From Hymenobacter aerilatus (GTDB lineage: Bacteria > Bacteroidota > Bacteroidia > Cytophagales > Hymenobacteraceae): DNA of 64,000 nucleotides. Under the pieces are notes generated by a model, which worked only from the letters and a program-made list of their open reading frames with translations, made no database searches and was not told where the DNA came from. The translations under genes and the position numbers were made by a program. The stretch spans positions 5,002,501-5,066,500 of the forward strand of contig NZ_CP095053.1 of the NCBI RefSeq assembly GCF_022921095.1. Reading direction: 5' to 3'. This document shows positions 37,994-41,868 of the stretch, piece after piece. Within the stretch, counting starts at the first letter, position 1. Each line of letters starts with the position of its first letter.

Positions 37994-38119
37994 CGATTTG
38001 CAAAAAATGTGGCGGTGGCAAACGATGCCGATAGTTTATGATGCCCTGCGAGGGTAGGAAGGGGTAGTAAAGCTGGGTGGATTCTACGTATTTGCCGCTT
38101 TCCACCTCTATTGGTCCCT

Positions 38120-39220
38120 ATGCACTACCCACATTCCTACCTACTACTAGGCGCCTTGCTCAGCCTAGCTGCCTGTGAATCGAATAGCACCAAGCAGCCC
38201 GAAACCGCTGCCGCTACTACTACCACAACGGCCGCTGCCGACTCGAGCAAGTACCTGACACAGCCGCTGGTGCGCGACATCTACACGGCCGACCCCTCGG
38301 CGCACGTGTTCAACGGCAAAATCTACGTATACCCGTCGCACGATATCGAGACGGGAATGCCGGAAAACGACAACGGTGACCATTTCGCCATGCGTGACTA
38401 CCACATCCTGTCGATGGATAGCGTAGGAGGGAAAGTGACTGACCACGGCGTGGCTCTCGATGTGAAGGATATTCCCTGGGCTAAGCGCCAATTGTGGGCA
38501 CCCGATGCAGCCTTCAAGAATGGTACTTACTATCTATATTTTCCTGTAAAGGACAAGCAGGATATTTTTCGCATTGGGGTAGCAACTAGCACTTCGCCTA
38601 CCGGCCCGTTCAAAGCCGAGCCGCAACCCATCAAAGGCAGCTACAGCATCGACCCAGCCGTGTTTACGGACACCGACGGCAAGGTCTACATGTACTTCGG
38701 CGGGATATGGGGCGGACAGCTTCAGCGCTGGCGCACCGCCCAGTACGACTCTACGGTAGCGCCCAGCCAGCCGGCGCAAGAGGTAGCCATTGGTCCCCGC
38801 GTAGCCGCCATGAGTGCCGACATGAAGGAGTTTGCCGGCCCAGTGAAGGAAATTCAGATTCTGGGTAAAGACGGCAAGACGCTACTGGCTGGCGACAACG
38901 AGAAGCGCTTTTTTGAGGGTGTTTGGATGCACAAATACAACGGCAAGTACTACCTGTCCTACTCCACCGGCGACACGCACCTGCTGGTATATGCCACCGG
39001 CGACTCGCCCATTGGCCCCTTCACTTACCAAGGCGTCATCATGGAGCCCGTACAAGGCTGGACTACCCACCATTCCATCATCGAAAAAGACGGCAAGTGG
39101 TACATCTTCTACCACGACACGCAGTTATCTGATAAAACTTGGCTGCGCAACGTGAAAGTAACGGAGCTAAAGCGCAATCCGGATGGCAGCATTCAGACTA
39201 TTCAGCCGATGGGGAAATAG
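38120..39220 (+). CDS. Glycoside hydrolase family 43 lipoprotein
   Basis: 366 residues from ATG 38120. The N-terminus has a lipobox LAAC with Cys at 19, then a Thr-rich linker to about 42. The five-bladed propeller domain carries the catalytic base D58 (TADPSAHVF), the pKa-modulating D178 (YSIDPAVFTD) and the acid E266 (FFEGVWMHKYNGKYYLSYS region). GH43 enzymes cut arabinan, xylan or galactan side chains. No SusC/SusD pair is adjacent, so it is not in a typical polysaccharide utilisation locus. Confidence 0.88.
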   Translation: MHYPHSYLLLGALLSLAACESNSTKQPETAAATTTTTAAADSSKYLTQPLVRDIYTADPSAHVFNGKIYVYPSHDIETGMPENDNGDHFAMRDYHILSMDSVGGKVTDHGVALDVKDIPWAKRQLWAPDAAFKNGTYYLYFPVKDKQDIFRIGVATSTSPTGPFKAEPQPIKGSYSIDPAVFTDTDGKVYMYFGGIWGGQLQRWRTAQYDSTVAPSQPAQEVAIGPRVAAMSADMKEFAGPVKEIQILGKDGKTLLAGDNEKRFFEGVWMHKYNGKYYLSYSTGDTHLLVYATGDSPIGPFTYQGVIMEPVQGWTTHHSIIEKDGKWYIFYHDTQLSDKTWLRNVKVTELKRNPDGSIQTIQPMGK

Positions 39221-39424: not shown

Positions 39425-40987
39425 TTATTCCTCTTCTAAACTCTCCTTAGTCAAAACGTCAACCAAACCATCTTCACTGACTACAATGGCCATGCAGGGG
39501 TAGGGGGAGCTTTGCACGTAGCGGATAGCGGAATTGTAGCGGGCGCCGCGGGTGCTATTGCCGCGCCCCGTGGCCGTGCCATCCAGAATCACGCCGATGG
39601 AGTAGCAGTAGGAGTCGGGGTCGAGGAGAACGGCGCCGTCGATGGCCGTGACCAGACGGGTGATGAGGGGCGTAAGCGGCACCGGCTCGATGAGCGTGCA
39701 TTGCAGCTTCAGGCGGTCGGCTTCGGCCAGGGCCTCGGTGGTGATGACCAGCAGCGTGCCGTGCTTTTGGCGGCTGGCTTCGGCGGCCACTTCCCAAAGG
39801 CGTTCCACCTTTTCGGGGTTGGTGAGGTCGAAGGTGCGGCGCAGCTCCTTGCGGAAGCTGCTGCGGTTGAGACGCGCCCGCGCCAGGCTAGGCTGCCCGT
39901 AGTGCGTGCGCATCAGCACCTTGCCCGCGTGCTGAAACTCCCAGGCGTAGTGCGTCACGAAGCTAATAACGAATAAATCCTCGCGGCTAGCGTCGTACTG
40001 ACCAATTTGCCGGCCCAGGGCGTACACGTTTTCACCGTCGGCGAGCAGGCTCACGTCGGGGGTAGTCATTTCCAGCAACTTGCGTACGGCCCGGTAGTCG
40101 CTGAGCGGGGTAGGGCAGGTGAGGGCAAACACTTCTTCGAGGTTGGGATGGTGCCGGGCCGCCAGCATCATTTTGCCTACCCCCTCCATGCCCTCGTAGC
40201 GCAGCGAGGAAATGGTGTTGAGCGTAGCGTAGAGCTTAGCCTCGGCCTTGCTGATACCCAGGTCCTGGGCAGGCGTCTGCATAAACAGCGTGCCGGCGGC
40301 GCGCACCAGCTCGTCGGTTTCGCGGGGGCGCATCAGCAGGCCTGCGCCAGGCTCCGGCTCGCTCAACGACTTGGCACACTCCTCGTGAAAGCGAATAATA
40401 GCCGCCTGAATCAGCGACGGTATCACCGGCCGGCCGTTGGTATAGAACCGATCGGGGCGCAGGGTAGGGTGGCGCCGAACGGTCTTGCGATTTAGTTGCA
40501 AGATGGGCAGCACATGAAAGCCGTTGATGAGCACTGGCCAGCCGGCAAAAGACGCTCTGGTATGGTGAACCTTATCATGTTCATCCAGAATCTCCTGAAT
40601 GGCCAAGCGCAGCACATAGCCCTCATAGCGCCGCCGTACGGGCTCCTCGGGCGTCTGCTCGGTGCGCTCGGTCAGGATCCAGCTGCCCCGGTCGTGCAGG
40701 CGCTGGCAGCGCGTATGCGCATCGGCAAACGTTACGGGGTCGTAGTCAGAGGTATCGGAGCCGAGCAGGGAGGCCAAGCCAGTGGCGTTATCAATAGCCG
40801 GTAAGGCCAATAGCTGCACACGGGGCTGCAAATCTTCGTCCAGTGCGTCAAATACGCCATCCGCAATAGTCTGTGCGGCCTGGCGGAAGTGCGCCTGGTA
40901 GGGCCAGATGAGGGTAGGGTCGGGGCTGGGGGTAGGAAGACCTGGCGCGACGGGCGGAGCGGCAAGCAAGGGGAGGGTCGTCAGCAT
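39425..40987 (-). CDS. Diadenylate cyclase (DisA_N/DAC)-domain protein with long N-terminal region
   Basis: 520 residues from ATG 40987; upstream in-frame codons overlap the neighbouring gene. The last 120 residues look like a DAC domain: LLVITTEALAEADRL, IDGAVLLDPDSYCYSIGVIL with the DGA motif at 450-452, and RGNSTRGARYNSAIRYV. The second catalytic motif, RHR in DisA, is RYN here (483-485). The N-terminal 390 residues have no membrane helix and no domain I recognise; sensor-type domains fused to DAC have been described by others, which this may be. It would make c-di-AMP, a nucleotide messenger, if active. A TonB-C protein gene lies 104 bases upstream on the same strand. Confidence 0.75.
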   Translation of the reverse strand: MLTTLPLLAAPPVAPGLPTPSPDPTLIWPYQAHFRQAAQTIADGVFDALDEDLQPRVQLLALPAIDNATGLASLLGSDTSDYDPVTFADAHTRCQRLHDRGSWILTERTEQTPEEPVRRRYEGYVLRLAIQEILDEHDKVHHTRASFAGWPVLINGFHVLPILQLNRKTVRRHPTLRPDRFYTNGRPVIPSLIQAAIIRFHEECAKSLSEPEPGAGLLMRPRETDELVRAAGTLFMQTPAQDLGISKAEAKLYATLNTISSLRYEGMEGVGKMMLAARHHPNLEEVFALTCPTPLSDYRAVRKLLEMTTPDVSLLADGENVYALGRQIGQYDASREDLFVISFVTHYAWEFQHAGKVLMRTHYGQPSLARARLNRSSFRKELRRTFDLTNPEKVERLWEVAAEASRQKHGTLLVITTEALAEADRLKLQCTLIEPVPLTPLITRLVTAIDGAVLLDPDSYCYSIGVILDGTATGRGNSTRGARYNSAIRYVQSSPYPCMAIVVSEDGLVDVLTKESLEEE

Positions 40988-41091: not shown

Positions 41092-41868
41092 CTATAGCTG
41101 AAATACTATGGGGAGTACCATTTTCTGGCGCATGGGCTTGCCCTGAAACCGGGCCGGCTCCCACTTGGGTGCGACTTTGATCAGGCGGATGGCTTCCTCA
41201 TCTAGCCCCGAGCCCAGACGTTTAGCCACCTTCACATCGGTGAGCGAGCCGTCGGGCTGAATCAGGAACTCCACCATTACCCGGCCCTGAATCTTGCGCT
41301 GCCGGGCCAGGGCAGGGTAGCGCTGGTTTTGCTGCACCCACTCAAAAAAAGCATCGGTGCCGCCCATGGGTCGGGCCGGCGAGTCGGGCTTCACAGTGAT
41401 GGGGCCACCGTTGGGATTGGGGGTAGGAGCCGCGGCCCCCGTGGCATCCGTCGGAATCTGGAACATAACGGGTACCGTGACACGCTGGCGCACTTTCTGG
41501 CCTTTGTGCTCGGCGGGTGTCCAGCGCGGGGCGGCGGCAATCAGCCGCATGGCTTCGGCATCTAGGGCCGGGTCTACGGGCTTCTCTACCTTCACCTGCG
41601 AGATGCTGCCCGTTTTTTCTATCACAAACGACACCGGCACCGTGCCTTGCTTGCCCGCCTGCAACGCCTGAGTAGGGTATTGCTGATGCTCAGCCAGGTA
41701 CTGCGCGTAAGCCTCCACGCCCCCGGCCGGAATGGCGGGCTTCTCTACTTCATCGTAGATTTCCTGCGGGTCAGCTTTCGGGTATTTCAGCTTTTGCTGG
41801 GCTTGGGTGGTGAGGCTGGCGGCGCTAAGGGCTACTATAAAAGCGAAGCGGGGTAGGAGGCGAGGCAT
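41092..41868 (-). CDS. Secreted protein with two TonB C-terminal domains
   Basis: 258 residues from ATG 41868 (PRLLPRFAFIVALSAASLTT, a signal peptide). Two TonB-C-like units follow: about 60-135 (YPTQALQAGKQGTVPVSFVI) and about 175-258 (YPALARQRKIQGRVMVEFLI), each ending in a PRW or PKW-plus-P motif (APRWTPAEHKGQKVRQRVTV; APKWEPARFQGKPMRQKMVL). Classical TonB has a membrane anchor and one such domain; here the protein looks exported with tandem domains, joined by a Pro/Gly-rich linker. The role in energy transduction is uncertain. Confidence 0.8.
   Translation of the reverse strand: MPRLLPRFAFIVALSAASLTTQAQQKLKYPKADPQEIYDEVEKPAIPAGGVEAYAQYLAEHQQYPTQALQAGKQGTVPVSFVIEKTGSISQVKVEKPVDPALDAEAMRLIAAAPRWTPAEHKGQKVRQRVTVPVMFQIPTDATGAAAPTPNPNGGPITVKPDSPARPMGGTDAFFEWVQQNQRYPALARQRKIQGRVMVEFLIQPDGSLTDVKVAKRLGSGLDEEAIRLIKVAPKWEPARFQGKPMRQKMVLPIVFQL

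Follow-up and report, generated by a model that had tools for sequence, protein, structure and literature searches.

Does a diadenylate cyclase (DAC) domain that carries RYN in place of the canonical RHR motif still belong to a working enzyme? The question is raised by a protein encoded in a 64,000-nucleotide stretch of Hymenobacter aerilatus DNA, referred to here as the window. An earlier note on this DNA had left it between a sensor that makes c-di-AMP or another dinucleotide and a degenerate enzyme used as a receptor. We conclude that the protein, which we call copy A, is probably a soluble, cytosolic diadenylate cyclase of the DACNG-DACNH-DAC type, a known but scarcely investigated kind in which two probable sensor domains precede the DAC domain, predicted to be catalytically competent and serving a housekeeping role rather than CBASS.

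Translation of the window places the start of the 520-aa, minus-strand open reading frame at the ATG at 40987. A longer frame, starting from a GTG at 41164, is possible; the ATG is common to many orthologues. The nearest named orthologues, those of H. citatus and H. profundi, are 97% identical, and a dN/dS of 0.033 against the H. citatus orthologue indicates that copy A is under strong purifying selection. Three DAC proteins are encoded in the genome, namely a canonical CdaA (Pfam DAC and CdaA_N), copy A, and copy B, a paralogue 38% identical to copy A at C1:1326006-1327463. Copy A has no membrane or hydrophobic segment (the maximum 19-residue Kyte-Doolittle mean is 1.4), no export segment was seen, and neither an HhH domain nor CdaA_N is among its Pfam matches. 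The earlier description of a protein without membrane helices or an HhH domain, and otherwise unlike DisA or CdaA, is therefore accurate; in their place stand DACNG and DACNH. Coordinates are collected in the table.

Table. Features of the copy A locus, with positions in the window.
Feature	Position	Strand	Basis
DAC-domain protein, copy A, 520 aa	39425..40987	-	ORF and translation
DACNG domain, residues 27-236, probable sensor domain	40280..40909	-	Pfam PF21752, E 3.3e-65
DACNH domain, residues 251-354	39926..40237	-	Pfam PF21750, E 1.3e-28
DAC catalytic domain, residues 402-513	39449..39784	-	Pfam PF02457, E 1.1e-9
DGA motif, residues 450-452	39632..39640	-	D450 and G451 the same in all 113 homologues
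RYN motif, residues 483-485, replacing RHR	39533..39541	-	R483 and N485 invariant in 113/113 homologues
Double TonB_C protein, 258 aa, likely start 41868	41092..41868	-	Pfam TonB_C, two stretches

The 390-residue N-terminal region, which had been called unknown and could not be placed, is made up of two Pfam domains. PF21752, PF21750 and PF02457 match in that order with 220.3, 99.5 and 38.3 bits, all above the curated cut-offs of 27 bits, and the suspected fusion of sensor-type domains to a DAC domain is thereby given its names, with DACNG as the probable sensor. Among the orthologues of copy A, mean identity to it rises from 0.48 in DACNG to 0.82 in DACNH and 0.89 in DAC; the N-terminal domain is fast-evolving and the DACNH-DAC unit highly conserved. 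This low conservation, the Pfam label and weak GAF-like structural matches suggest that DACNG senses a ligand or partner. DACNH-DAC proteins without DACNG occur on Priestia plasmids, at a locus of genome G123 (L174) and on a viral contig (L140), where the DAC part was detected by alignment and not by Pfam. They share with copy A the DACNH and DAC segment with R-[YF]-N and differ from it in their N-terminal region, so DACNG is an exchangeable part.

The DAC fold of the C-terminus is confirmed by profile and by structure model. In an AlphaFold2 model built from 37 sequences (pLDDT 84.7, pTM 0.81), residues 388-518 match structures of CdaA and DisA at Z 12.3 (VIA-align); the match to 9g69_D covers 124 residues at Z 12.3 with an rmsd of 2.6. 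Direct sequence comparison of copy A with solved structures, by single sequence and by profile, gave nothing meaningful. Copy A shares with CdaA/DacA the fold (Z 12.3), the DGA motif and the serine-acidic motif SE(D/E), but lacks the CdaA_N membrane part and has RYN for RHR, and the same genome encodes a separate canonical CdaA. It likewise shares the fold with DisA (Z 12.3 to the M. tuberculosis protein, 12.1 to the T. maritima D75N mutant), but its DAC domain is C-terminal, it has neither linker nor HhH domain, and RYN again stands for RHR.

The motifs were compared across 113 homologues, comprising 80 copies A, 21 copies B, two proteins from a single-copy sister genus, and 10 from plasmids and viral contigs. 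Twenty-one residues are invariant, among them D450, G451, I467-G470, R480, G481, R483, N485, R489, Y490, S504 and D506. The DGA motif is thus present as described, with position 452 being A in 110 proteins and T in three. Both MAFFT and hhalign place RYN one-to-one on the RHR of CdaA, although the hhalign alignment, in which one side is a single sequence, has a low probability of its own, and no relative shows RHR aligning at another position. Y, F and L all occur at position 484, giving a family pattern of R-[YFL]-N. Since R483 and N485 are kept in all 113 proteins, the mobile homologues included, and an E. coli DS-2-type DAC also has RYN, we read RYN as the family's own motif and not as decay, which goes against the degenerate enzyme that the earlier note had offered as one alternative. 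R480 and R489 stand at positions where the aligned CdaA has no arginine, and are candidates to compensate for the lost RHR residues.

The main argument against competence is that canonical DACs need RHR, so that loss of its second and third residues could matter. With RHR changed to AAA, M. tuberculosis DisA is inactive and no longer binds ATP (PMC3328451), and CdaS is likewise inactive (PMC4568413); our literature search found no measured activity for any RYN-type DAC. A domain that has lost catalysis and now acts as a receptor, binding c-di-AMP or another nucleotide, would accord with the reduction of RHR to R-Y-N; conservation of the motifs also fits binding only, as a nucleotide-binding receptor would keep them too, and the canonical CdaA of the genome could supply the ligand. 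We nevertheless consider such a receptor quite unlikely. The metal and nucleotide positions are fully kept in the 113 homologues, including DGA, S504, the acidic positions 505-506 and two further invariant arginines, and DS-2 defence needs the predicted catalytic residues of an RYN-type DAC (PMC13092281). The same substitutions might instead mark a changed substrate, with a product other than 3',5'-c-di-AMP, whether a cyclic di- or mononucleotide: an invariant ILDG stands where CdaA has ILPV, in addition to RYN for RHR. The domain is nonetheless recognized as DAC by Pfam, and a changed substrate seems highly improbable to us. As to turnover, a PgpH-type 7TM-HD phosphodiesterase was not found in the whole genome, and the only candidates that emerged for degrading c-di-AMP are two DHH proteins.

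The distribution of the family points to a core function in Hymenobacter. A search with the copy A protein found at least two family copies in all 101 same-genus genomes, with copies A 58-97% and copies B about 38% identical to the query. In a family search, DACNG occurs in four of 395 Bacteroidota genomes, all four of them Hymenobacter, and in 76 of 150 Hymenobacteraceae genomes; Hymenobacter and genus g174 have two copies each and genus g171 one, and none is listed for genera g172, g173 and g175. A DACNH search adds one distant genus. Copies A form one clade in the tree and copies B another (100/100 each); copy B groups with the single g171 copy (100/99), and the g174 copies are nested inside the Hymenobacter copies A. 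The DS-2-type group (Citrobacter, Gluconobacter and the viral contig L137) falls outside both clades, with long branches leaving the deeper order unsure. No homologue of copy A was found in the phage collection, PADLOC returned no match, a second scan of viral contigs with the Citrobacter protein as query found nothing, and the literature search returned no paper treating Hymenobacter together with c-di-AMP or diadenylate cyclase. What is newly seen here is DACNG-DACNH-DAC as a fixed, duplicated core gene of Hymenobacter with a constant TonB-C neighbour.

The nearest characterized relative lies in anti-phage defence. The DS-2 system, found with DefensePredictor, protects E. coli against phages and includes a DAC, and mutating two predicted catalytic residues of that DAC abolishes defence (PMC13092281). 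An E. coli protein listed by NCBI as 'anti-phage protein', encoded in a trio of phospholipase, nucleotidyltransferase and DAC genes, carries DGT and RYN; we take this trio to be DS-2, an assignment made from names and gene order rather than from an accession match. Copy A shares with the DS-2 DAC the order DACNG-DACNH-DAC and the RYN motif. Its closest NCBIfam model is DS2_3_antiphage (NF053872), matched with 436.4 bits over positions 5-487 of 576, below the equivalog cut-off of 630 bits; the C-terminal extension of about 85 model positions is absent. Against the same model the relatives from Citrobacter, Gluconobacter and L137 reach 803.8, 712.2 and 721.4 bits, and copy A is about 30% identical to the Citrobacter protein over 94% of its length. 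As in DS-2, the relatives on plasmids and viral contigs adjoin a CD-NTase and either a phospholipase (patatin) or a Cap15 effector. One prophage-like viral contig (L137:766-4076) carries a CD-NTase, a Cap15 effector and a DS-2-type DAC, and is thus a CBASS whose effector differs from that of E. coli DS-2; at another locus (L136:1-2963) a DACNG-DACNH-DAC gene directly adjoins a phage-type integrase. The genome of copy A itself has a SMODS CD-NTase, far from copies A and B, next to a 261-aa protein without a Pfam match (L173:7765-9357, equal to G000:C1 about 1055764-1057356); the two are homologous to a pair that adjoins a DACNH-DAC gene on the Priestia megaterium plasmid pFDU301D (L038).

These resemblances raise the question of whether copy A is an anti-phage cyclase linked to DS-2 or CBASS, acting alone or in trans, which became fixed in the genus and still serves immunity. 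The nearest model, the company kept by the mobile relatives, and the Priestia plasmid homologues of the CD-NTase and its neighbour all speak for such a role. The score below the cut-off and the missing C-terminal positions speak against it, as does the setting. Homologues of the CD-NTases tested, of patatin and of Cap15 were absent near copies A and B, both in the window and in 100 Hymenobacteraceae loci tested; with no CBASS gene adjoining either copy, the core DAC is independent of CBASS in cis. Whereas all 101 genomes of the genus have the DAC, a SMODS CD-NTase is present in just 21 of them, so that in most genomes the DAC is independent of this enzyme as well. Copy A further differs from DS-2 in being a core chromosomal gene with two family copies per genome, held at a fixed site under strong purifying selection. 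A continuing role in immunity is, in our judgement, unlikely.

The setting of copy A is marked by the gene for a double TonB_C protein, which lies directly upstream of its start, 104 bp away. In all 79 named copy A loci that reach far enough to show the upstream gene, TonB-C is directly upstream on the same strand, with a median gap of 94 bp (range -26 to 589). The pair is also found in four g174 loci, and g171 has a TonB-C relative at 49-51% without an adjoining copy A. On the other side, the conserved gene is DUF4442, separated from copy A by more than 1 kb in 27 of 77 loci. The earlier proposal that the TonB-C protein is a partner of the DAC holds as far as this adjacency is concerned. A direct complex is unlikely, because the TonB-C protein, whose N-terminus is signal-peptide-like, appears to be exported and the DAC to be cytosolic; co-expression is likelier than contact. 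The neighbours of copy A in the window are GH43, TonB_C and a MutS-type protein. The GH43 glycoside hydrolase gene at 38111-39220 (+), between the DAC gene and DUF4442, occurs in two of 80 orthologous loci and is therefore a recent insertion. Copy B is neighboured in many genomes by a DUF4112 gene and an FAD-type enzyme; it often lies near DUF4112 (L002:858-2919; L141, L152, L157, L158 and L160), as does the family gene of the single-copy sister genus g171.

Structure prediction of the N-terminal region, which the earlier note had proposed comparing with DAC-associated sensor domains, gave DAC-like matches for DACNH and weak matches for DACNG. When residues 24-385 were modelled alone (pLDDT 89.3, pTM 0.89), the top 16 entries in VIA-align were all DACs (CdaS, DacM, CdaA, CdaM and DisA), at Z 8.2 to 5.9; by the program's own note, values near 8 are borderline and can arise by chance. 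The matches fall mostly on model residues 217-343, that is, protein residues 240-366, the DACNH region. Ranked by Z, 2fb5 comes first but superposes poorly (rmsd 6.6); 7dfx comes second, at Z 8.0 and an rmsd of 3.5 across 118 residues. Read by eye in both models, the strand and helix order of DACNH follows that of the DAC domain minus the RHR-bearing helix. When DACNH and DAC were compared with hhalign, the score of 15.1 was lower than that of a reversed control (16.89) and than the highest value among 200 column shuffles (18.95). In our own profile alignment 10 of 300 shuffles did at least as well; it chose an unrelated register, and the register seen by eye was discarded as evidence. DACNH may thus be a degenerate second DAC domain, a possibility to which sequence comparison lends no support. 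DACNG resembles GAF domains, LuxR-type ligand domains and longin/roadblock proteins weakly (Z about 4-6, VIA-align), and MglB at Z 8.0 in the first model only. As Foldseek with the N-terminal model alone gave no match under E 0.38, its fold stays at a weak GAF- or longin-like resemblance.

We tentatively extend this to a broader proposal, which we hold at somewhat less than even chances: copy A and the whole DACNG-DACNH-DAC family, the DS-2 cyclase included, would be tandems that combine a pseudo-DAC with an active DAC of the RYN type within one chain, present in Hymenobacter as a fixed, CBASS-free core gene. To our knowledge, DACs function only as face-to-face dimers, and for this reason the pseudo-domain might act as an internal dimer partner or as a gate that senses nucleotides, through contacts made by the invariant E265, R302 and K303.

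For copy A as a competent housekeeping cyclase, we envisage that DACNG would sense a ligand or partner and that the DACNH-DAC unit would respond by joining two nucleotides into c-di-AMP or a closely related cyclic dinucleotide. R-[YF]-N would take over the function of RHR, together with the additional invariant arginines R480 and R489. The gene, probably co-expressed with the exported TonB-C protein encoded upstream, would serve a housekeeping signal beside the ordinary CdaA and in two paralogous copies. An apparently degenerate cyclase is thereby resolved as an intact member of a phage-defence-linked family. Should RYN-type DACs prove active, annotation could not safely rely on the RHR motif as a test for DAC activity, and if DACNH is a pseudo-DAC, the switching-on of DS-2-type cyclases becomes directly testable. 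Hymenobacter offers a setting in which this DS-2-related DAC family is open to study as a core gene, free of CBASS.
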